The position numbers were made by a program, and so were the translations under genes. This document shows positions 1,462 through 22,337 of a stretch of 64,000 bases of DNA, in pieces. How positions within the stretch are numbered: the first letter of the stretch is position 1; every line of letters begins with the position of its first letter. Below the pieces are notes generated by a model, which was not told where the DNA came from, did not search any database, and saw only the letters and a program-made list of their open reading frames with translations. Source of the stretch: Ignavibacterium sp. (lineage in GTDB: Bacteria; Bacteroidota; Ignavibacteria; Ignavibacteriales; Ignavibacteriaceae); NCBI GenBank assembly GCA_032027145.1, contig JAVSMP010000001.1, positions 1,082,903-1,146,902 on the forward strand, given 5' to 3'.

Positions 1462-1682
1462 CTCAATTCATTGATGCCCATCATCCCTCCAAAGGAGTCG
1501 CTCGGACAGCTTTTAACAGGCAGAATACCTTAATAATTGCTTAACAGTTTTTATAAATCATCGAATGGATTTTTAATTTTAGATAATTGTGAACTACTAA
1601 TCTGTGTATAAAGAAGTGTTGTTTACCTGCAGTAAAGTTTCAAAATAAAATTAAAATTATTATAATTGCGGTAAACAATAAG
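1456..1682 (+). mobile_element. 227-bp ORF-less element, copy 1
   Basis: It starts TTATATCTCAATTC directly after the attC2 core G and ends ...CAATAAG just before the TTGTGGG that begins the next cassette. Copies 2 and 3 are identical over 227 bp, and copy 4 has four substitutions. It contains a GGTAAACAA / TTGTTTACC inverted repeat near the right end, a CTGCAG site and only a 19-codon reading frame. No transposase, terminal inverted repeats or target duplication are seen. An R'' box matching its own start is absent; GCTTAAC at 1539 is the nearest candidate. Confidence 0.85.
1638..1668 (+). promoter_or_regulatory. Possible Bacteroidota-type promoter in ORF-less element (copy 1)
   Basis: TTTC at 1638-1641 is followed after exactly 19 bases by TATAATTG at 1661-1668. 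Each box is one base off the Bacteroidota consensus (TTTG, N19-21, TAnnTTTG). Transcription would start just inside the right edge of the element and enter the next cassette. The same arrangement is present in copies 2 and 3, and weakened in copy 4. Confidence 0.35.
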
Positions 1683-1767
1683 TTGTGGGTAAGTTTAGAA
1701 AGACACCCAAACCGACAAAAGAACCGTTTAAAATTGTAAATTTGCCGAACTAACAAATAAAGACTTC

Positions 1768-3497: not shown

Positions 3498-3633
3498 TAC
3501 GCACAACAAGGTATTGCCCAAAGCGGGGGTGACGAACTTCTATGAAACTTTTGTGCTTAACCGAACATTAGTTTTTCAAATGAACAGTAGTGCAGAAACG
3601 CTCCGCCTTCGGCAATACCCGAAACCGTTATAT
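3498..3633 (+). repeat. attC-like site 3
   Basis: Left TACGCACAACAAGG, right arm ending CCCGAAACCGTTATAT. The block 3505-3854 (attC body plus ORF-less element) equals 1333-1682 with one substitution. Confidence 0.8.
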
Positions 3634-3854
3634 CTCAATTCATTGATGCCCATCATCCCTCCAAAGGAGTCGCTCGGACAGCTTTTAACAGGCAGAATAC
3701 CTTAATAATTGCTTAACAGTTTTTATAAATCATCGAATGGATTTTTAATTTTAGATAATTGTGAACTACTAATCTGTGTATAAAGAAGTGTTGTTTACCT
3801 GCAGTAAAGTTTCAAAATAAAATTAAAATTATTATAATTGCGGTAAACAATAAG
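3628..3854 (+). mobile_element. 227-bp ORF-less element, copy 2
   Basis: Identical to copy 1, with the same left (G^TTATATC) and right (AATAAG^TT) junctions. The following cassette starts TTAGGCAACA. The bases after it, 3855-4029, hold no gene that I can recognise. Confidence 0.85.
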
Positions 3855-4194: not shown

Positions 4195-4225
4195 TTTGAC
4201 TGTAATGTACAATTTGTTACTTTTG
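4195..4225 (+). promoter_or_regulatory. Bacteroidota promoter of the RM/TIR operon
   Basis: TTTG at 4195-4198, 19 bases, then TACTTTTG at 4218-4225: an exact match to TTTG-N19-TAnnTTTG. It lies 30 bases before the TTG start of the regulator gene. Confidence 0.7.
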
Positions 4226-4256: not shown

Positions 4257-4565
4257 TTGAAAAATATAGCGGAAATAATCAGAGAACTAAGAGAGCAAAA
4301 CGGACTATTGCTTCGACAGGTTGCTGCAGAAATAGAAATTGACCAAGCTCTTTTAAGCAAAATTGAACGTGGAGAGCGAATGCCGACAAAAGATCAAGTT
4401 ATTCGTTTGGCTAAATTTTATAAGGTTGACCCGAATGAATTTTTGATTGCGTTTATAAGCGATAAACTTGTTTACGAATTGCAGGACGAAGAAGTAGCTT
4501 TAAAGGCCATGCAAGTAGCCGAGAAGAAAATAAACTATATAGCTAAAAAGAAAAATGGCAAATAA
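4257..4565 (+). CDS. XRE-family HTH regulator (controller-protein-like)
   Basis: 102 residues. A helix-turn-helix of the Cro/CI (XRE) type occupies roughly residues 5-60 (RQVAAEIEIDQALLSKIERG, the canonical LSKIE recognition-helix pattern). TTG 4257 is used because the only nearby upstream ATG (4246) runs into a stop. Its 3' end overlaps the methylase gene by 11 bases. Small XRE proteins in front of type II systems act as controllers that delay nuclease expression; the dyad at 4226 overlapping the promoter would allow autoregulation. The regulatory role is inferred from context. Confidence 0.82.
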   Translation: MKNIAEIIRELREQNGLLLRQVAAEIEIDQALLSKIERGERMPTKDQVIRLAKFYKVDPNEFLIAFISDKLVYELQDEEVALKAMQVAEKKINYIAKKKNGK

Positions 4566-6141
4566 AAAACTCATAGAAAAAATTGCCAATGAGTTGCCGA
4601 GCCATTATGCTGACCGGCTTGGGTTGAATTATGCCAAATCTGTTAATCAGGAACACAAGAAAACAAACGGACAGTTTTTTACTCCGATTGAAATAGCCGG
4701 ACTGATGGGAACATTCGCTGAATCTCGTCAAAGTTCTCTCAGAATACTTGACCCCGGTTGCGGCACAGCTATTCTGACATGCGCATTAATAGAATCACTT
4801 GCAGAGAGCAATAAAAAATTGAAGGAGATTGAATTAATAGTATATGAAACCGACAAAGCATTAATTCCATACACAAAAGAATCGATTGATTATTTGAGAA
4901 GTTGGTTAAGTGAAAAAAATATTGATTTTAAATCTGCGGTTCATACAAATGATTTCATTCTTGAAAACGCAGATTGCTTAACAGATAATGGCAACTTGTT
5001 TTCACAGACAATTGAACCGTTCGATATTATTGTTTCAAATCCTCCTTATTTCAAATTGCCGATTGACGACAAACGGGCGATTGCTGCAAAAGCAGTTGTT
5101 AACGGCCACCCAAATATCTACGCTATTTTTATGGCAATTTCCGCGAGATTACTGAAAGAAAACGGCCAACTAATATTTATTACACCGAGAAGCTACGCTT
5201 CCGGGAGTTACTTCAAATTATTTCGTGGGTATTTTTTCAAGATAATTGAAATTGATAAAGTGCATTTGTTTGTTTCCAGAAAGGACACGTTCAACAGAGA
5301 TAAGGTATTACAGGAAACAGTAATCATAAAAGGCACGCGAAAGGAAAAAACAAATCCGAAGCACAAAGTAAATGTTTATTCATCACATGGGTTAAAAGAT
5401 ATTGATTCTCCAATAATCAAATCTTTCACACAAAAGGAATTGATTGATCTCAATTCAAATGAAAAAATATTGTACCTACCCACAAGCGATTCAGATGAAG
5501 TGATTTTGAATGTTTTTAAAAATTGGAATGGAAACTTGAATAAATACAATATTCAGATTTCAACCGGCCCTGTCGTTGCGTTCAGATCAAAAGAGTATTT
5601 ACATGACACATATCAAAACGGAACAGTATTTTTAGCTCCACTCTTTTGGCTACATAACGTAAAGCAAATGGTCTTGGAATGGCCGATGCCAAAGCCCGAA
5701 AAAGGACAATATGTAAGAATACAGGATGAATCAAAGTCTATTCTCATTCCAAATAAAAACTACGTTCTATTGAGGCGCTTCAGTGCTAAGGATGATAAAA
5801 GCAGATTGGTCGCAGCTCCGTACTTTTGCAATTTCATTGAAGCAGAATATATCGGGGTAGAAAACAAGGTAAATTACATCTATCGTCCGAAAGGTCATTT
5901 GGAACGAAACGAGGTAATTGGGCTTTGTGCTTTATTAAACAGCAGTTTATTCGATTCGTATTTCAGAATTTTTAATGGAAATGTAAATGTGAGTGCAACA
6001 GAACTCAGGGAAATTCCACTTCCACCGCTCGAAATGATCAAAGAGATTGGCAACAGCATTATTCTTTCCAATGATTTTTCGGTAGATAACGCCAACAAAA
6101 TAGTAAGTGAACAATTTGAATTTACACCAGCAATAATATGA
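4555..6141 (+). CDS. BsuBI/PstI-type N6-adenine DNA methyltransferase
   Basis: 528 residues. AdoMet-binding motif I is LDPGCGTAIL (about 65-74) and the catalytic motif IV is NPPY (162-165). The order, with a long C-terminal target-recognition half, fits gamma-type N6-adenine methylases such as M.BsuBI and M.PstI. It should protect host DNA from the nuclease encoded next. It overlaps the regulator by 11 bases and the nuclease by 4 (ATGA), so all three are coupled. Known relatives recognise CTGCAG; the specificity here is not proven. The gene sits fully inside an integron cassette. Confidence 0.88.
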   Translation: MANKKLIEKIANELPSHYADRLGLNYAKSVNQEHKKTNGQFFTPIEIAGLMGTFAESRQSSLRILDPGCGTAILTCALIESLAESNKKLKEIELIVYETDKALIPYTKESIDYLRSWLSEKNIDFKSAVHTNDFILENADCLTDNGNLFSQTIEPFDIIVSNPPYFKLPIDDKRAIAAKAVVNGHPNIYAIFMAISARLLKENGQLIFITPRSYASGSYFKLFRGYFFKIIEIDKVHLFVSRKDTFNRDKVLQETVIIKGTRKEKTNPKHKVNVYSSHGLKDIDSPIIKSFTQKELIDLNSNEKILYLPTSDSDEVILNVFKNWNGNLNKYNIQISTGPVVAFRSKEYLHDTYQNGTVFLAPLFWLHNVKQMVLEWPMPKPEKGQYVRIQDESKSILIPNKNYVLLRRFSAKDDKSRLVAAPYFCNFIEAEYIGVENKVNYIYRPKGHLERNEVIGLCALLNSSLFDSYFRIFNGNVNVSATELREIPLPPLEMIKEIGNSIILSNDFSVDNANKIVSEQFEFTPAII

Positions 6142-7073
6142 GCAAACTTGACGAAGCAAAAAAGATACTCAAAGAATTAGGGCTGCCAACAGCGCAGCAA
6201 AATGAAATATCTGCATATACATTGTTGGCACTCTGCGGTATTAAGCCACGTGATAGTTGGAGTAAGGCTACTCGTAAAAGTTTAAAGGTTACCAAAGGAA
6301 TTATGGCGTTTGTCCTTGATGTTCACAAAAAAGAGTACGCTCCAAATACAAGAGAAACATTTCGCAGACAGGTTTTACATCAATTTGTTCAGGCACGAAT
6401 TGCTGACTATAATCCCGACAATCCAAAACTCCCTGTAAATAGCCCGAATGCTCATTATGCTATTACTAATGAAGCTCTGGAAGCCATTCAAGCCTTTGGA
6501 ACAAAGAACTGGAAAAAAGCTGTTGAGAGATTTAAAGCAGAAGCCGGAGAATTGGCGAAGCGATATAAAAAAGAAAGAAAACAAAACCTGATTCCCGTAA
6601 AACTTAGTAACGGCAAGACTATTAAACTTTCATCAGGAAAACACAATGAAGTTCAAGCTGCCATCGTACATAATTTTGCAGCAAGGTTCGCTAATGGCGG
6701 ATCGGTTCTTTATTTGGGAGATACAGCGAAAAAAGATTTGTTCGTGGATGAAAAGAAGTTGAAAGAATTAGGAATACCGATTGACCAGCACAGTAAACTG
6801 CCAGACGTTGTGATTTATGATGAGAAGAAAAATTGGTTGTTCTTGATTGAAGCGGTTACTTCACATGGGCCGGTTTCTCCGAAACGACTTGTTGAGCTGG
6901 AAGAATTTCTGAAAGACTGTAAAGCCGGGAAGATTTATGTAACAGCATTTCCCGATTTCACCGAATTTAAAAAACACTCCAATAATATTGCCTGGGAAAC
7001 GGAAGTATGGCTGGCTGATACGCCAGACCATATGATTCATTTCAATGGCGATAGATTTATGGGGCCAAGGTAG
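6138..7073 (+). CDS. BsuBI/PstI-family type II restriction endonuclease
   Basis: 311 residues, close to R.BsuBI/R.PstI. The N-terminal half is a helical DNA-binding region and the C-terminal half carries the family core: VLYLGDTAKKDLF, then KLPDVVIYD (Pro222-Asp223) and LFLIEAVTSHGPVSPKR (Glu238), the PD-(D/E)xK-like centre of this family. It cleaves unmethylated target DNA, probably CTGCAG-like by family. The ATGA overlap with the methylase keeps modification and restriction in one transcript, with the regulator first. The gap to the TIR-like gene is 31 bases, so read-through is likely. Confidence 0.87.
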   Translation: MSKLDEAKKILKELGLPTAQQNEISAYTLLALCGIKPRDSWSKATRKSLKVTKGIMAFVLDVHKKEYAPNTRETFRRQVLHQFVQARIADYNPDNPKLPVNSPNAHYAITNEALEAIQAFGTKNWKKAVERFKAEAGELAKRYKKERKQNLIPVKLSNGKTIKLSSGKHNEVQAAIVHNFAARFANGGSVLYLGDTAKKDLFVDEKKLKELGIPIDQHSKLPDVVIYDEKKNWLFLIEAVTSHGPVSPKRLVELEEFLKDCKAGKIYVTAFPDFTEFKKHSNNIAWETEVWLADTPDHMIHFNGDRFMGPR

Positions 7074-7104: not shown

Positions 7105-7590
7105 ATGTGGCCAGTATTAATAGGATTAGGGATAGGGGCGTTAATAGCAAGTGCTTTTTCAGATGAAGAAGAACCTCCTAAAAAAAGAAGGAGAGGCACA
7201 ACCCGTAGGACAAAGAAGAAGATCTTTATCAGTTTTGCAATTGAAGACAAGAAGTACAGAGATTTTCTTGTTTCACAAGCTAAGAATGAAAGAACTCCAT
7301 TTTCTTTTGTTGACATGTCGGTAAAAGAACCCTGGACACAAAAAATTTGGAAAGAGAAGTGTAGAGAAAAAATTCAGAAGTGTGATGGAATGATTGTCTT
7401 GCTAAGTAAAAATACGTGGCATTCAAGTGGCTCAAGATGGGAAATAACCTGTGCGAAAGAGGAAGGCGTTCCGGTTATTGGAATGCATATAAAGAAAAAT
7501 GATAAAGGTGCGAAGCCGCCCGAACTTAACGGAAAGAAAGTAATTGAATGGTCATGGGATAATTTGGATGAAACAATTAGCAAATTTTAA
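7105..7590 (+). CDS. Membrane-anchored TIR-like (DUF1863/ThsB-like) protein
   Basis: 161 residues. An N-terminal hydrophobic segment (residues 2-17, PVLIGLGIGALIASAF) is followed by an acidic then very basic linker (KKRRRGTTRRTKKK) and a TIR-like domain starting IFISFAIED. Family hallmarks are FVDMSVKEPW and SRWEITCAKEEG; Glu113 of WEI is the expected catalytic glutamate. This is the MTH538/DUF1863 branch to which Thoeris ThsB belongs. ThsB proteins make a cyclic ADP-ribose-type signal on phage infection (established); here that activity is inferred. The stop abuts the next start (7590/7591). It is paralogous to the gene at 8448. Confidence 0.82.
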   Translation: MWPVLIGLGIGALIASAFSDEEEPPKKRRRGTTRRTKKKIFISFAIEDKKYRDFLVSQAKNERTPFSFVDMSVKEPWTQKIWKEKCREKIQKCDGMIVLLSKNTWHSSGSRWEITCAKEEGVPVIGMHIKKNDKGAKPPELNGKKVIEWSWDNLDETISKF

Positions 7591-8265
7591 ATGAGATTAT
7601 TTATCTGCAATAGGAATACTGACAAAATAGCAACAGAGAACGTCATCAAAGATTTGTTCGCTGTGTCAGAAAATTCTATAGCAATTCTTCAAGAAACTGA
7701 ACACGTTGAAAATTGGAAAACTCTTGTAGAAAAGAAAATGCAAGAATCGGATTTTATTGTTTTCGTAATTGGAGCCGATACTTTTGCAAGTGATCAAGTC
7801 AAGTGGGAATATGCAAAAGCGAAAAGCTTGAATAAGCAGATTGTAGGTATTAAACTCTCGACAGCATCAAAAGAATCAATATTATTCTGCCAAGGGTTTC
7901 AAGTATTTGAAAAGGTTGAACAGTGTTTTAAATTCCTTTCAAAAACATTTGAAGACGATAGAAAACTGAAATTCGAGCAATATAAAATGATGGTAAGCTC
8001 AACAGAGAAGGTGACTGAGAGCAGAATGAAAGTTAATAACCTGTTTTTTACAATTACGTCCTCCATCCTCTCGGTTGGATTTGTTTTGGGTAAAACATTC
8101 GGATTTACTATTGCAGCTACAATAGGAATGATTGTTTTAACGGCATTATCACTTTTAGTATCATATTTCTGGGAGAAATTAATAGATTCTTACGGCAAGC
8201 TCAACACTGGTAAATTCAAAGTGATCGATAAGATTGAAAAACAACTTCTGGACGAACATGTTTGA
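7591..8265 (+). CDS. TIR-like protein fused to RipA-like membrane domain (C-terminus in another frame)
   Basis: 224 residues. The N-terminal 115 form a diverged TIR-like domain (start LFICNRNTDK; DFIVFVIG; KWEYAKAKS with Glu73 at the catalytic position). A charged helix (120-145) follows, then two membrane segments (about 150-169 and 171-193), and then WEKLIDSYGKLNTGKFKVIDKIEKQLL. From memory, this last stretch matches the segment after the membrane helices in proteins annotated as RipA-family octameric membrane proteins, where it runs on into a DAEW...-type segment. Here the frame ends at 8265, and the continuation (FEDEWKIL...) is in the +1 frame from 8258. The gene is either frameshifted or encoded as two coupled pieces. 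Confidence 0.68.
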   Translation: MRLFICNRNTDKIATENVIKDLFAVSENSIAILQETEHVENWKTLVEKKMQESDFIVFVIGADTFASDQVKWEYAKAKSLNKQIVGIKLSTASKESILFCQGFQVFEKVEQCFKFLSKTFEDDRKLKFEQYKMMVSSTEKVTESRMKVNNLFFTITSSILSVGFVLGKTFGFTIAATIGMIVLTALSLLVSYFWEKLIDSYGKLNTGKFKVIDKIEKQLLDEHV

Positions 8266-8431
8266 GGATGAATGGAAAATTCTTACAGAGGAAATAAAGT
8301 ACGAGCCAAACACAAGAACCGAAACGAAAGTCATAAAATATTTCAGAACATTTATAATAATAGTTGGAATATTTGAATTGCTTTATCTCGGCTATCATCT
8401 ATATCAGTTAATCCCCAAATGTTATTGTTAA
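8258..8431 (+). CDS. C-terminal piece of the RipA-like membrane protein (overlapping frame)
   Basis: 57 residues from ATG 8258, overlapping the stop of the preceding gene by eight bases. It begins MFEDEWKILTEEIKYEPNTRTETKVIKYFRTF and ends with a hydrophobic helix (FIIIVGIFELLYLGYHLYQLI). It reads as the natural continuation of the preceding TIR-membrane protein (EKQL...EDEW). Either a one-base change split one gene, or the two are made by termination-reinitiation or frameshifting. No independent homologue is recognised. Confidence 0.55.
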   Translation: MFEDEWKILTEEIKYEPNTRTETKVIKYFRTFIIIVGIFELLYLGYHLYQLIPKCYC

Positions 8432-8447
8432 TTAAAACCAAATAAAT

Positions 8448-8828
8448 ATGGCAAACAAAAGAGTATTCGTTGCATTTGCAATAGAAGATGAAACAACTAA
8501 AATCCTATTCACGGGTCAAGCTAAAAACGCAAAGGTTCCTTATGAATTCGTTGACATGTCAGTCAAAGAACCATTTGACGAAAAATGGAAAACAAATTGC
8601 AGAACAAGAATTAAAGGCTGTGATGGATTCATTGCATTAGTTTCTAAGAACACTAAAAAAGCAGCGGGTGAATTGTGGGAAATCGATTGTGCTAAAGAAG
8701 AAAAAATTAAAATGTTGGGTATTTACATTAAAGAAGCAACTTATGCGGACAAGCCAGACAATATGACTGGTGTAAATTGTAAAGAGTGGACTTGGGACAA
8801 TGTGAAAGAATTCATAGAATCCCTTTGA
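8448..8828 (+). CDS. Soluble TIR-like (DUF1863/ThsB-like) protein
   Basis: 126 residues, a bare TIR-like domain: VFVAFAIED at the start, FVDMSVKEPFDEKW, CDGFIALVSKNT, then LWEIDCAKEE with Glu78 as the candidate catalytic residue. It shares those blocks, in order, with the membrane-anchored protein at 7105, so the two are paralogues probably arisen by duplication around the membrane-protein gene. By analogy with ThsB it may make a nucleotide signal from NAD+ and the membrane protein between the two could be the effector; this is inference. It is the last gene of the 5.3-kb cassette, 16 bases after the preceding frame. Confidence 0.82.
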   Translation: MANKRVFVAFAIEDETTKILFTGQAKNAKVPYEFVDMSVKEPFDEKWKTNCRTRIKGCDGFIALVSKNTKKAAGELWEIDCAKEEKIKMLGIYIKEATYADKPDNMTGVNCKEWTWDNVKEFIESL

Positions 8829-9234: not shown

Positions 9235-9999
9235 ATGTCGATAACAAGACAAGATGAACTTATCGGAATGAAAAAAGCAAGTGAAGCAGTTGCTTTGACT
9301 TTGAAGGAAATGCGGAACTATGCTAAACCCGGTATGACAACAAAGCAATTAGACAACTATGGAGCAAAAATTCTGTCATACTTTGGTGCAAAATCAGCAC
9401 CTTATTTGACCTATGGTTTTCCAGGTTGGACTTGTATTAGCGTTAACAATGAATTTTGCCACGGTATTCCGTCCGAAAGAAGAATATTACAAGAAGGCGA
9501 TTTAGTGAACATAGATGTTTCAGCAGAACTTAACGGTTTTTGGTCGGACAATGGAGGTTCGTTTGTTCTTGGACAAGACATTAACCAACATCAAAAACTA
9601 ATAGACGCTTCGCAAGAAATTTTACATAAAGCAATCTATAACATTAAAGGTGGTGTCAAAGTCGCTGACATCGGACACATAATGGAAACGGAAGCAAAGA
9701 AGAGGGGATTTAAAGTTATCAAAAACCTTGGAGGGCACGGAGTTGGTGGAAGTTTACACGAACAACCAGACGAGTTAATGAATTATCGAAACCGATTTGA
9801 CCAAAGACGATTTAAGAAAAATTCAGTAGTAGCAATTGAGACTTTTATTTCAACATCTTCAAATTATGCAATTGAATTAAAAGACGGTTGGACTATGGTT
9901 GGTAACAAAGGTGGTTTTATGGCACAACACGAGCATACAATTGTGGTAACTGACGGGAAACCAATAATTCTAACTGAGATGAATGGAATATGGAATTAA
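9235..9999 (+). CDS. map: Type I methionine aminopeptidase (cassette-borne)
   Basis: 254 residues, the length of bacterial type Ia enzymes. It removes the N-terminal Met from nascent proteins. The metal ligands are all present at near-E. coli positions: Asp94, Asp105, His168, Glu202 and Glu233, with the substrate-binding His76 in FCHGIP. It is the single gene of its cassette (TTATGTGT at 9175, R'' ACACATAAC at 10011). Presumably the host has its own chromosomal map, so this is an extra copy. Extra Map genes could give resistance to a Map inhibitor or alter a toxin or defence protein; neither can be read from sequence. Confidence 0.92.
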   Translation: MSITRQDELIGMKKASEAVALTLKEMRNYAKPGMTTKQLDNYGAKILSYFGAKSAPYLTYGFPGWTCISVNNEFCHGIPSERRILQEGDLVNIDVSAELNGFWSDNGGSFVLGQDINQHQKLIDASQEILHKAIYNIKGGVKVADIGHIMETEAKKRGFKVIKNLGGHGVGGSLHEQPDELMNYRNRFDQRRFKKNSVVAIETFISTSSNYAIELKDGWTMVGNKGGFMAQHEHTIVVTDGKPIILTEMNGIWN

Positions 10000-10010
10000 A
10001 AACTGCCCGA

Positions 10011-10144
10011 ACACATAACACGGGTTTTGCGTCAGGCGGGGTGACGTGCAAACTTGGAGCTTTGTGCTACTATTCAAGTTCAGTGCTGGTTGACAGTTTA
10101 GTGCTTCGAAATCCGCCACTGCGCCAAGCGCCAAACCGTTATAT
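10011..10144 (+). repeat. attC-like site 5
   Basis: Left ACACATAACACGGGTTTTGCG, right CGCCAAGCGCCAAACCGTTATAT. From 10046 to the end of the adjoining ORF-less element it matches 14408-14727 (attC7 plus copy 4), about 320 bp, almost perfectly. Confidence 0.8.
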
Positions 10145-10365
10145 CTCAATTCATTGATGCCCATCATCCCTCCAAAGGAGTCGCTCGGACAGCTTTTAAC
10201 AGGCAGAATACCTTAATAATTGCTTAACAGTTTTTATAAATCATCGAATGGATTTTTAATTTTAGATAATTGTGAACTACTAATCTGTGTATAAAGAAGT
10301 GTTGTTTACCTGCAGTAAAGTTTCAAAATAAAATTAAAATTATTATAATTGCGGTAAACAATAAG
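10139..10365 (+). mobile_element. 227-bp ORF-less element, copy 3
   Basis: Identical to copies 1 and 2, with the same junctions. It precedes the McrBC cassette (TTAGCGGTC at 10366), whose R'' at 13157 (ACCCGGTAAC) is complementary with one mismatch and one inserted base. Confidence 0.85.
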
Positions 10366-13390: not shown

Positions 13391-14338
13391 ATGAAATCAG
13401 TAGCCCGAAAATATCCTGTTTTAACCTTCTTCACATTATCTGTTCTAATCTCCTGGGCAGGCTGGGTTCCTTATGCTGCTTCAAAATCAGGATTGTTGAA
13501 TCTAAATATTCCATCCGAAATTATTTGGCTTGCAGAATTTGGACCATCACTTTCTGCAATAATTATTTCGGTATTAATTTATGGAAAGACTGACACTACA
13601 AGTTTACTTAAACGCCTTCTGATATGGAAGACAAGTATTAAATGGTATTTCTTTGCTATAGTGGTTACTCCAATTTTAATTTTAGCATCAATTGGAATTG
13701 ATATTTTATTGTTCAATACAACCTATGACTTTTCGCTATTGAGTCAATGGGATACCAACTTTATTAATCGAACGGAAGCTTTTACTCCTTCAATGGGACT
13801 TATTACTCAATTAGTTTCCTTTATGCACACAGGGACTTTTGCAACAGGACTTGTCTTTTTAGTATTAGCTTTAACCAATGGCGGACTTTCGGAAGAGATA
13901 GGCTGGCGTGGATTTGCGTTAAGTAAATTTCAGGACAAACCATACAACTTTTTAGTTTCAAGTTTGTTCGTTGCTTTATTATGGGCATTCTGGCACACAG
14001 GAACACTATTTTGGCAAACAGTGTTTACATCTACTTTTTCAGAAGGAATTTCATTTGCAGCAGTCTATCTTTTTCAATATCTGTTACTCGTAATTCCTTT
14101 GTCAGTGCTATATACGGTTTTATACAATGGGACAAATGGAAGTATTCTTCTTTCAATAATATTACACGCCTCTTACAACATTTCAATTTCCATATTTGCA
14201 ACAGCTCTTCCAAATTTCCCAATGATAATTTTAGTTGTTTTGCTTTGGATCTTTGCTATTTTACTGACAATTATTTTATGGAAAAAAAGTAAATACAACA
14301 AGACATATCCCAATGAAACTAATGAAGCCAGCCGCTAA
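13391..14338 (+). CDS. CPBP-family intramembrane glutamic endopeptidase
   Basis: 315 residues, with about eight membrane segments. The CPBP (CAAX protease/bacteriocin-processing, Abi) motifs are all present: EEIGWR (Glu168-Glu169, Arg173), FWHTGTLF (His202) and HASYN (His259, Asn263). These proteases cut within the membrane and are linked to bacteriocin self-immunity, prenyl-protein processing and abortive-infection-like roles. It is the sole gene of its cassette (TTAGCTGC at 13302, R'' GCCGCTAAC), and its stop lies within attC7. The substrate is unknown. Confidence 0.86.
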   Translation: MKSVARKYPVLTFFTLSVLISWAGWVPYAASKSGLLNLNIPSEIIWLAEFGPSLSAIIISVLIYGKTDTTSLLKRLLIWKTSIKWYFFAIVVTPILILASIGIDILLFNTTYDFSLLSQWDTNFINRTEAFTPSMGLITQLVSFMHTGTFATGLVFLVLALTNGGLSEEIGWRGFALSKFQDKPYNFLVSSLFVALLWAFWHTGTLFWQTVFTSTFSEGISFAAVYLFQYLLLVIPLSVLYTVLYNGTNGSILLSIILHASYNISISIFATALPNFPMIILVVLLWIFAILLTIILWKKSKYNKTYPNETNEASR

Positions 14339-14506
14339 CACGGGTTTACCTTCGGTGCTGCTTCGCGGTTGCGTCAAGCGGGCTGATCCTGTAAAGCGGG
14401 ACAAGTTGTGCAAACTTGGAGCTTTGTGCTACTATTCAAGTTCAGTGCTGGTTGACAGTTTAGTGCTTCGAAATCCGCCACTGCGCCAAGCGCCAAACCG
14501 TTATAT
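14334..14506 (+). repeat. attC-like site 7 (extended)
   Basis: Left GCTAACACGGGTTTACC, right CGCCAAGCGCCAAACCGTTATAT. It is about 40 bp longer than attC5 because of an extra segment near 14355-14405; the right part (from 14408) equals attC5. Confidence 0.75.
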
Positions 14507-14727
14507 CTCAATTCATTGATGCCCATCATCCCTCCAAAGGAGTCGCTCGGACAGCTTTTAACAGGCAGAATACCTTAATAATTGCTTAACAGTTTTTATA
14601 AATCATCGAATGGATTTTTAATTTTAGATAATTGTGAACTACTAATCTGTGTATAAAGAAGTGTTGTTTACCTGCAGTAAAGTTGCAAAGTAAAATTAAA
14701 ATTTTTATTATTGCGGTAAACAATAAG
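14501..14727 (+). mobile_element. 227-bp ORF-less element, copy 4
   Basis: Same length and junctions as the other copies, with four substitutions near the right end (in the -33-like box, nearby, and in the spacer bases of the -7-like box). The next cassette starts TTGGTGGC at 14728. Confidence 0.84.
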
Positions 14728-15956: not shown

Positions 15957-16089
15957 CCACCAACAAGGTATTGCCAAAAGCGGGGCTGAACGGCTTCGAT
16001 TGGACATTTGTGCAAGGTTCAACAGCAGTAATTCTATTGAACTTTTGTGCTAAAAATCCGCCACATCGCCAAGCCGAAAAACGTTATAG
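15957..16089 (+). repeat. attC-like site 8
   Basis: Left CCACCAACAAGGTATTGCC, right TCGCCAAGCCGAAAAACGTTATAG. R'' is the exact complement of the RES cassette start. Confidence 0.82.
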
Positions 16090-16147
16090 CCAATGCTAAA
16101 GGACGGACAGACCAAACATAAAATGACAGACGAAATGCCAACCGCAC

Positions 16148-16210
16148 ATTCAAGCACATTTGGTTGCCCCAACGCACGGGCGAACGCTTCGCAACCAAAA
16201 GAGCTTGAAT
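16148..16210 (+). repeat. Bracketing hairpin H3 (ACA/AGA internal loop)
   Basis: ATTCAAGC-ACA-TTTGGTTGC pairs perfectly with GCAACCAAA-AGA-GCTTGAAT (8 bp + 9 bp). Both stems differ from H1 and H2 with compensating changes, while the internal loop is kept. It ends 34 bases before hen1. Confidence 0.72.
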
Positions 16211-16244
16211 TTTGCCACCGCACGACAACGATAATATTAACAAA

Positions 16245-17637
<1,393 letters not shown>

Positions 17638-17648
<11 letters not shown>

Positions 17649-20214
17649 AGTACCCGAATTATCGCTTGTTGTTTTAATTGGTGTTTCGGGTTCAGGAAAG
17701 AGCAGTTTCGCCAAAAAACATTTTAAACGAACAGAAATATTATCTTCTGATGAATGCCGTGCATTGGTTTCGGATGATGAAAACAGTCAGTCAGCAACAA
17801 ATGATGCTTTTGATGTTTTGTATTACATCGCTGGCAAACGATTGAAAAGTGGTTTGCTAACAGTTATTGATGCCACAAATGTCCAAAAGGAATCTCGCAA
17901 AGGACTAATTGAATTGGGAAGAACATATCATTGTTTGCCTGTTGCTATTGTTCTTGATTTACCTGTAAAAGTTTGTGAAGAAAGAAATCAAAGCAGACCA
18001 AACAGAAATTTCGGAGGACATGTAATTCGTCAGCAAAATCAGCAATTAAAGAAATCAATTAGAGGATTAAAGGACGAAGGTTTTAGACAAATATATGTTC
18101 TGAAATCACTCGAAGAAGTTGATGCAGTTCTTGAAATCAAAAGAGAGAAACTTTACAACGATAAAAAAGATGAAACGGGTCCATTCGACATCATTGGCGA
18201 TGTTCACGGATGTTTTGACGAATTGCAAGAACTTCTTTTAAAATTGGGTTATTCAGTAAAGAGAACCGATGAAACTGCAAATAATTTTGGCTTTAGCGTT
18301 CTAGCTCCTGAAAACAGAAAAGTAATATTCGTTGGCGATTTGGTTGACCGTGGCCCTGATTCACCAAGTGTTTTGCGTTTGGTAATGAGTATGGTTAATT
18401 CAGGTGTTGCTTTTTGTGTTCCTGGCAACCACGACTTGAAATTACAGAAATACTTAAATGGAAAGCAGGTTCAATTAAAGCACGGATTAGAAGTAACAGT
18501 TAAACAACTAGAAACTGAAACTGCACAATTCAAATCAACTGTAGAGAAATTTCTTTATGGATTAATCAGTCATTACGTATTTGACAATGGTAAATTGGTT
18601 GTTGCTCATGCTGGTCTTAAAGAAGAAATGCAAGGTCGTGGCTCAGGGGCAGTTCGTTCATTCTGTATGTATGGTGAAACAACAGGAGAAATTGATGAAT
18701 TTGGTTTACCTGTAAGACATAGTTGGGCAAAAGAATATCGTGGGAAAGCAAAAGTTGTTTATGGACATACACCAGTTCCCGAAGCAGAATGGTTAAATAA
18801 AACTATTGACATTGATACCGGCTGTGTGTTTGGCGGTAAGTTAACAGCTTTACGTTATCCCGAAGAAGAACTAGTTTCTGTAAAAGCCAAAATGGTTTAT
18901 TGCGAACCTATACGACCAATCAACTTTAATGAAAATCAAAACAAACTTAGTTCGCAACAAGAGTATGACGATTTATTAAATATTGAAGATGTTATTGGTA
19001 AACGTATTGTACAAACAAGACTTAGAAATAACATCACCATTCGAGAAGAAAACTCTATTGCAGCATTGGAAATAATGAACCGATTTGCAATTAACCCGAA
19101 ATGGTTGATTTATCTTCCACCAACAATGTCGCCTTGTGCGACAAGCGATATTCCTGAATATTTAGAACATCCTGCCCAAGCTTTGAATTACTACAAGAAG
19201 CGTGGAATTGAAAAAGTTGTTTGCGAAGAAAAGCACATGGGTTCAAGAGCTGTATTGGTAATTTGTAAAGACGAAGAATCAGGAACAAAACGTTTTGGAG
19301 TTCAAAATGAAGGTATCGGAATTTGCTATACAAGAACAGGAAGAAACTTTTTCAACGATGCTGAAATTGAAAAGGAATTTGTTGGAAGAGTAAATCAATG
19401 TTTGACCAAAACAAATTTCTGGAAAAAATTCAACACAGACTGGGTTTGTTTAGATGCTGAATTAATGCCTTGGTCTGCAAAAGCACAAGCTTTGCTAAAA
19501 GACCAGTATGCAGCAGTCGGTGCAGCCGCTGGTGGAGCTTTGCCTGAAGTTGAAAAGGCTTTACAATTAGCTTTTGACAGAGGAATAAAAGATGCTTTAC
19601 CTTCTTTGGAAAAATTTGCGGTAAAGAATAATGCGATTTCAAAATATGTAAAAGCATATCAAAACTATTGCTGGACAGTTGACACTATTGACGATTATAA
19701 ATTAGCTCCGTTTCATATTTTGGCAACCGAAGGACAAGTTCACGTTGACAAAACAAATGAATGGCACATGGAAAATATTGCAAAAATCTGCAAGGGTGAC
19801 ACCAAACTATTTATGGCAACACCGTACAAAATTGTTGACCTTAACGACCAGACAAGCTATGACGAAGCTGTAAACTGGTGGATGGAATTAACTAAAAAAG
19901 GCGGAGAAGGAATGGTTGTAAAACCGTTCGACTTTATTTCTACAGGGACAGAAGGACTTTTACAACCTGCTGTGAAATGTAGAGGAAGCGAATATCTAAG
20001 AATTATTTACGGACCCGAGTACGACCTGCCTGAAAATATTGAAAGACTAAAAAACCGTGGACTTTCTAGAAAACAATCTTTAGCAATTAGAGAATTTGCT
20101 TTAGGCGTTGAAGGACTGGAACGGTTTGTGAAAAAAGAACCATTAAGACGAATACATGAAAGTGTTTTTGGAGTATTAGCATTAGAAAGCGAAGATGTTG
20201 ACCCACGATTATAA
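17638..20214 (+). CDS. pnkp: Bacterial Pnkp: polynucleotide kinase-phosphatase-ligase
   Basis: 858 residues, the size of the characterised enzyme. The N-terminal kinase has P-loop GVSGSGKSS (Lys21-Ser22). The central metallophosphatase has IIGDVHGCFDEL (Asp188, His190), GDLVDRGPDS and PGNHDLK. The C-terminal adenylyltransferase/ligase has EEKHMGSRAV (nucleotidyl Lys532) and GEGMVVKPF (motif V). It heals 5'-OH and 2',3'-cyclic phosphate ends, and with Hen1 it seals tRNA and other RNA broken by ribotoxins. No domain is truncated. The pair fills an integron cassette, next to toxins of the PIN and RES types. Confidence 0.94.
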
Positions 20215-20230
20215 GCCAACCCTTCGCAGT

Positions 20231-20290
20231 CATACACATTGGCAAGCCATACAATGCATCCGCACTGACCAAAGCTTGCCAAAGAGTATG
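20231..20290 (+). repeat. Bracketing hairpin H4 (ACA/AGA internal loop)
   Basis: CATAC-ACA-TTGGCAAGC pairs with GCTTGCCAA-AGA-GTATG; an extra GCAG/CTGC pairing flanks it (20226, 20292). It begins 17 bases after pnkp. Confidence 0.72.
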
Positions 20291-20323
20291 CCTGCCCAAC
20301 TGCAGGGTGGAAAAGAAAGCACT

Positions 20324-20458
20324 GGCTATAACATCGGTTTGGCAAAAGGCGGGGTTTCGTGTTACAAAGACAGTTTTGTGGTTAAACAAACATTAGTTTG
20401 CCAAATCAAGTTTTGTGGTAAAAGTCCCGCCCTTCGGGTAGCTGCAAAAACGTTGGGC
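20324..20458 (+). repeat. attC-like site 9
   Basis: Left GGCTATAACATCGGTTTGGC, right end GTAGCTGCAAAAACGTTGGGC (core GTTGGGC, exact GTTRRRY). It closes the Hen1-Pnkp cassette. Confidence 0.8.
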
Positions 20459-21590: not shown

Positions 21591-21644
21591 ACGCCAGTTA
21601 CGAACATTTAAGCGATGTAAGACTGAAAATAAAATTAGTTGTAA

Positions 21645-22078
21645 GATGAATCGAATTAATATTATTGCACTTGGCGTGTGAGATATACAAAAATCCGTAA
21701 AGTTTTATCGAGTAGGATTGGGATTTCAAACTAAGGGAATTGAAGATTGTCCGAAAGTTATCATTTTCAACACTTTTGAGACATAGTTTGAATGTATCCA
21801 CTAGATTTATTAGCACAAGATATTAACGAATCAAATCCACCTAAAATTGCACAAGGTTTTAGTTGAATGACTTTAGCGTTCAATCTGAAAAACAAACAAG
21901 AAGTTCACGAAACGATTGAGTTGGCTCGCAAAGCAGGTGCAACTATCGCAAAAGAACCTCAAAAAGTTTTTTGGGGAGGTTACATGCTTATTTTGCCGAC
22001 TCTGACATCTATTTTGGGGAAGTAGCATATAATCCTATTGTTCCTTTTGACAAAAATGATATTCTGCAAATACGATAA
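21645..22078 (+). pseudogene. Decayed VOC (glyoxalase/bleomycin-resistance-type) protein
   Basis: Reading from ATG 21645 gives a VOC start (MNRINIIALGV, stop, DIQKSVKFYRVGLGFQTK) with a TGA after 11 codons and a TAG near 21784. A shift of frame near 21790 restores YPLDLLAQDINESNPPKIAQGFS, then another TGA, then MTLAFNLKNKQEVHETIELA and KAGATIAKEPQKVFWGGY. A further shift near 21980 gives AYFADSD, then a change near 22010 and FGEVAYNPIVPFDKND. At least two stops and two frameshifts make it non-functional. It is the last gene remnant of the array. Confidence 0.82.
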
Positions 22079-22082
22079 ATAT

Positions 22083-22220
22083 GCCAGCGGGTAATTTGCG
22101 GTATAGTCGATTGCTGGATTAGTGCGTATTCAAGCTGTTGTAGCCCGTATCAAAAGTAGTTGTAACTTGATAGGAAGGTGCTTCGAACTCGGCAACTAAC
22201 CATACCAGTACCCGTTAGCG
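22083..22220 (+). repeat. attC-like site 11 (degenerate, last of array)
   Basis: Left GCCAGCGGGTAATTTGCGG resembles the TAACACGGGTTTTGCG arm of attC5 but lacks the AAC; the right end ATACCAGTACCCGTTAGCG keeps a GTT core. It is the right limit of the array as I read it. Confidence 0.5.
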
Positions 22221-22337
22221 ACAGGTATCTGCTGAAAACTCTGATAAAGTATTAAAAAGTAAAAAAATGTTTGAAACATTGATTTGCCACATAAGTTAGA
22301 AAATTATTTAAAGAAGGAACTGGTGTGATATAGTTGG

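Follow-up and report, generated by a model that had tools for sequence, protein, structure and literature searches.

A textbook integron has a single entry site at one end of its cassette array, with new cassettes strongly expressed and old ones fading, and its Pc promoter is normally located near attI. The integrase IntI is defined by an IntI-specific additional domain around patch III (PMC9668308), and clusters of attC sites lacking an integrase are known as CALIN (PMC9024848, PMC8618304). Two further systems are close to the locus described here: the delta-attI-type cassettes of class 1 and class 2 integrons, which are excised and inserted by IntI1 (PMC12901181), and the promoter-bearing gene-less cassettes of Vibrionaceae superintegrons (PMC11014356) and oral Treponema (PMC6557892).

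We analysed a stretch of 64,000 nt of Ignavibacterium sp. DNA (the window; contig JAVSMP010000001.1, positions 1,082,903 to 1,146,902) whose cassette array contains a repeated ORF-less element. The element is 227 bp long, runs from G^TT to G^TT and occurs exactly four times in the 3.67-Mb genome, always within this array and on the + strand, at 1456–1682 (copy 1), 3628–3854 (copy 2), 10139–10365 (copy 3) and 14501–14727 (copy 4). Copies 1, 2 and 3 are identical, and copy 4 is 98% identical to them, with 4 substitutions in the attI spacer. The ORF list showed no gene-sized ORF inside the element; what it did show there were the tail of a recombinase gene and pieces of ORFs running in from the attC. 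Directly left of each copy lies an attC on the + strand, at 1333–1455 (the attC of the preceding kinase cassette), 3505–3627, 10016–10138 and 14336–14500, respectively, and the four copies are followed by four different cassettes, each beginning with GTTR. These attC sites were detected with a covariance model built from the window's ten attC sites; folding of the inverted ends was strong for the sites at 605 and 9055 (z scores of −2.4 and −3.5), weaker for the one at 1333 (−1.6), and not significant for those at 10016, 15961 and 20330. With 10 attC-like sites in the window and, in the genome, neither an IntI over the cut-off nor a full-length member of the 273-aa recombinase family described below, the array counts as a CALIN, a term that calls for two or more attC and no integrase gene. 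Unlike described CALIN, it holds four apparent remnants of the platform itself.

Searching the element alone against the phylum recovered two loci where the left (to ~1624) and right (from ~1618) parts of the element lie ~770–860 bp apart, with the gap filled by a gene on the opposite strand encoding a 273-aa tyrosine recombinase. Weak DNA matches at element positions 95–130 in other genomes were short and AT-rich and were set aside. A search of the order with the recombinase protein found it in 35 of 164 genomes. Results showed that in the eight closest Ignavibacteriales loci the recombinase gene has the left part of the element as its 3′ end, and that in platforms complete on the 5′ side the right part sits just 5′ of this gene and is followed by the first cassette at GTTR, both parts having the same order and orientation as in the element. 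All four window copies encode the last ~23 codons of the recombinase with a correctly placed stop (1549–1624 in copy 1, − strand; 83% identical at the protein level in all four). Comparison with intact platforms located the deletion junction at 1615–1630, at a short repeat (TTGTTTT / TTGGTTTW), with ~740 bp of the recombinase gene removed. By homology, the element is a delta-int/attI remnant of an integron-type platform, deleted between short direct repeats, and this anatomy suggests that it is not simply a promoter and that its main function would be that of a recombination site. A MITE, or a group II-attC intron targeting attC sites, would also be repeated, non-coding and always adjoining an attC, but we consider either extremely improbable, since the two parts of the element correspond to opposite ends of a single recombinase gene, reading the sequence revealed neither a target duplication nor group II termini, and an Rfam scan of the window gave no match.

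The weakest identification is that of the leftmost stretch of copy 1 (1481–1560), which is similar to fragments in a relative that in turn look like the 3′ tail of carB. Because the genome's own carB tail is only marginally similar to this part of the element, the label is tentative. Fragments resembling the carB 3′ tail are also repeated both in and beside the arrays of loci L092, L034 and L012, where they adjoin HicBA-like and nucleotidyltransferase-like genes, and are perhaps attachment sites of another island.

The element derives from a recombinase that is different from IntI, shorter, and devoid of the IntI-specific insertion. Aligned with one canonical IntI, all the short recombinases lacked a ~30-residue IntI-specific block, and they scored below the TIGR02249 cut-off (187 and 172 vs 265 bits), which canonical IntI passed in 57 of the 164 genomes of the order. 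The recombinase tree kept a single canonical IntI row and had long branches, and no rooting was drawn from it. An attC was present within 10 kb (<=10 kb) of 14 out of 37 short-recombinase loci and of 0 out of 69 IntI loci (Fisher P = 6e-8, counted on the best-listed attC places); genome by genome, attC presence followed the short recombinase (24/35 vs 31/129, P = 2e-6) and had no association with IntI (P = 0.23). These figures are to be read with an attC model trained on the window's array and with loci that are phylogenetically non-independent, and adjacency does not equal activity. The lineage's platform is like that of an integron (intI-attI-Pc) in that the recombinase gene is divergent from the array, entry occurs at an attI-like G^TT and cassettes bear attC sites, whereas its 273-aa recombinase is without the IntI-specific insertion near patch III.

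We then considered the right end of the element. Twenty-one attI-type sequences, from platforms and internal copies, aligned without gaps across a site that in copy 1 spans 1619–1684 (+ strand) and comprises two recombinase-arm motifs in inverted orientation (TTGTTTACCtGCA ... TTGCGGTAAACAA), a fixed distance apart, with the crossover at G1682^TT. The inverted arms pair in 179 out of 228 cells in register, compared to 94–123 at offsets of one to three bases, and the site keeps a conserved GTT at its edge. Its position between the recombinase gene and the first cassette and its GTTRRRY-type crossover, seen in intact platforms and at an exact cassette junction, are those of an attI, and we interpret it as a putative attI-type insertion site with predicted recombination activity. 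As in delta-attI-type cassettes, an attI sequence takes the place of an attC at the right end of the element. Order-wide matches to the attI pattern with 2 mismatches were numerous and many look like chance; the analysis kept just the matches that lie in an array context. The right end does fold as a hairpin (z about −3), as might an ordinary ORF-less cassette carrying a short attC there rather than an attI. We find this very unlikely: attC model R1, which detects the attC sites of the array, gives no match on the right end of the element, and the same sequence sits in relatives just 5′ of the intact recombinase gene, at the edge of the platform, next to the start of the array, so that the hairpin was rejected as an attC.

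The complete genome CP053447.1, of the same genus, allowed us to compare dispersal. A pattern search found seven copies there, in one array and on one strand, with 0 matches for the reversed control. One of them is a platform whose recombinase gene is frame-shifted and interrupted by stops, and the other six are internal and share their deletion junction with the window copies. The window cassette at 16083–20348 (+ strand), which here follows an attC, is 92.3% identical in CP053447.1, where the G^TT of an internal attI copy is its exact starting point; its other end is a full attC in the window and half an attC plus an attI in CP053447.1. This exact junction provides, at the level of sequence comparison, our strongest argument that the crossover site works. 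In CP053447.1, too, the kinase cassette that here lies left of copy 1 is found ahead of an element (84.6%), suggesting that some associations are old, and several CP053447.1 copies are fused to half an attC, which indicates that rearrangement is also at work. Genome G290, another member of the family, carries a copy with an independent, different internal deletion that keeps the first codons of the recombinase gene, and such remnants therefore arose at least twice. In a contig binned as Desulfobulbaceae (L145, WBUQ01000156.1) we observed an intact recombinase gene and an attI that nearly matches the CP053447.1 platform; the contig is either a mis-binned Ignavibacteriales contig or a recent transfer.

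The copies could also have spread by homologous recombination or gene conversion of an attC together with the element, without any site-specific mobility. Copies 1 and 2 share a 352-bp block that includes near-identical attC sites (99.7%), copies 3 and 4 have another block in common that includes part of the upstream attC sequence, and homologous duplication thus probably contributed; in addition, the window's genome has no such recombinase, so that present-day movement would need an outside enzyme. As an account of the whole pattern, segmental duplication nevertheless seems to us unlikely. Every copy has G^TT as its precise right edge, the four cassettes behind being unrelated, copies 1 and 3 have the element in common but different attC sites, the identity beginning near the left G^TT edge, and duplication of this kind does not account for the exact cassette junction at the internal attI of CP053447.1.

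Taken together, we consider it quite probable that this ORF-less unit represents what is left of an integron-type platform and works as an attI cassette and as an internal landing pad. As the comparison shows, a platform ordered as a carB-tail-like stretch, the recombinase tail and the attI-type site normally found 5′ of the gene lost the bulk of the recombinase gene via deletion between the short direct repeats. In the mechanism proposed, the element, with the G^TT crossover on its right and an attC adjoining it on the left, could circularise by attI × attC recombination: the attI at the right end would recombine with the attC on the left to give a small circle bearing attI, and this circle would re-insert after another attC, that is, as a cassette whose recombination site is an attI. 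Each inserted copy would then be an internal landing pad able to receive new cassettes at its G^TT, which the homologous junction in CP053447.1 supports in one case, and would perhaps also bring the Pc promoter. On this view, attI itself turned into an insertion site that is dispersed and behaves like a cassette, perhaps with Pc still in place; the circular intermediate and mobility at the present day are predictions of this model, as is promoter function.

The first-pass annotation had read the element as a mobile promoter, pointing to the boxes TTTC-N19-TATAATTG, one base off consensus in each. Both boxes are indeed found on the + strand at 1638–1668 of copy 1 (TTTC at 1638–1641, a gap of 19 nt and TATAATTG at 1661–1668), with one mismatch each to TTTG and TAnnTTTG, and the picture of a discrete, cassette-like unit with G^TT at both edges, dispersed and facing the next cassette, holds. 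The boxes themselves, however, are no more than chance would give. One-off/one-off matches with N19 spacing arose in 20% of dinucleotide-shuffled elements, and in 57% when the spacing was N17–21; for the right-most 70 nt only, the values were 6.7% (N19) and 22% (N17–21). Across the window such N19 matches occur ~1.0 times per kb, and in gene-upstream regions we counted 27 sense and 24 antisense. To calibrate the consensus we used a sample of ~450–500 kb of the window's genome with 108 upstream regions. In this sample TAnnTTTG was the top-ranked TAnnNNNN octamer upstream of genes (37 vs 18.1 expected), which makes the Bacteroidota-type consensus valid in this genome, and TTG-N17-20-TAnnTTTG occurred upstream of genes 10 times vs 1.4 expected. 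The element's variant TAnnATTG was not enriched upstream of genes in the same sample (13 vs 14.2 expected). Having TTTC and TAnnATTG, the element departs from the Bacteroidota housekeeping form TTG/TTTG-N17-20-TAnnTTTG at positions that the genome's own promoters keep, and the end of its −7 box belongs to the right recombinase arm of the attI-type site.

Other observations leave room for promoter activity. Such activity is plausible, attI sites being expected to have a Pc promoter nearby, and the TAT right before the arm overlap of the −7 box is also conserved in the attI alignment, which is compatible with an embedded Pc. Cassettes 3 and 4 begin only 35–50 bp past the element and have little or no space for promoters of their own. 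The same boxes are present in copies 1–3 and recur as TTTC-N19-TAttATTG in six internal CP053447.1 copies and at G290:1614329, and promoter activity has been found in gene-less cassettes of Vibrio and Treponema (PMC11014356, PMC6557892). On the other side, the −33 box is not conserved in intact platforms, and 6 out of 7 platforms have no exact TAnnTTTG in the array direction. We conclude that the element may carry the Pc promoter of the platform, for which the named boxes are poor evidence; that it persists because TTTC-N19-TATAATTG transcribes the next cassette is possible but, on balance, doubtful.

Two predictions attached to the promoter reading fared less well. Copy 4 had been expected to give weaker output owing to changes in and around both boxes. 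It does differ at four bases here (TTTC has become TTGC, an A in the spacer is G, TTAT reads TTTT, and TATAATTG reads TATTATTG), but the −7 change falls only at the free N positions of TAnnTTTG and the upstream change creates a TTG at N20, closer to the consensus of the genome, so that weaker output does not follow. The TATTATTG of copy 4 is also the commonest state among relatives. As to the proposal that defence cassettes depend on the element to stay expressed, the BsuBI/PstI-type restriction-modification cassette after copy 2 has an exact consensus-type, promoter-like site of its own, TTG-N19-TACTTTTG at 4196–4225 (+ strand).

Compared with the described systems, the element is like delta-attI-type cassettes (PMC12901181) in being bounded by attI, and differs from them in that it is gene-less, keeps the tail of a recombinase gene, belongs to a different recombinase and is located in chromosomal Ignavibacteriales arrays with 4–6 internal copies. 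It shares with the Vibrionaceae and Treponema gene-less cassettes the lack of an ORF, the location within an array and the orientation towards the next cassette, whereas those cassettes are attC-bounded with measured promoter activity and the element has an attI site and a putative promoter. A literature search, largely without subscription papers, returned nothing relevant on internal or multiple attI sites, which is weak evidence, and within the accessible literature we found no report of a platform remnant that has no ORF, serves as an attI at scattered points of chromosomal arrays and goes with a recombinase other than IntI. This combination is apparently new, while delta-attI cassettes and promoter-bearing gene-less cassettes were already known. 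The broader proposal is that Ignavibacteriales possess a second integron-like system, with a recombinase devoid of the IntI-specific domain and an insertion site that is itself a dispersing cassette, so that an array would have four to seven attI entry points, each perhaps with a promoter, rather than a single one; the chances of its being right seem to us evenly balanced. Dispersed attI copies would permit insertion, and perhaps expression, at many points of an array, and would change both the evolution of arrays and the reading of their gene order. It is also suggested by this system that the recombinase of an attC array can be one overlooked by the usual detection rule based on the IntI-specific domain, and some arrays described as lacking an integrase may therefore have one.

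Beyond the element, we noted several features of the attC-bearing regions. The attC model matched 16 sites in the genome, 10 of them in the window, and the other clusters, at 805836–816363 and 1810280–1820803, are without the element. The window's array appears to be decaying at its right end (21600–22230), where a glyoxalase-like gene is broken and an attC incomplete. As to cargo, an HTH gene, a methylase and a BsuBI/PstI-type restriction enzyme stand together at 4257–7073, followed at 7105–8828 by three small TIR-like-looking proteins, and a methionine aminopeptidase-like gene is carried as a cassette at 9235–9999.
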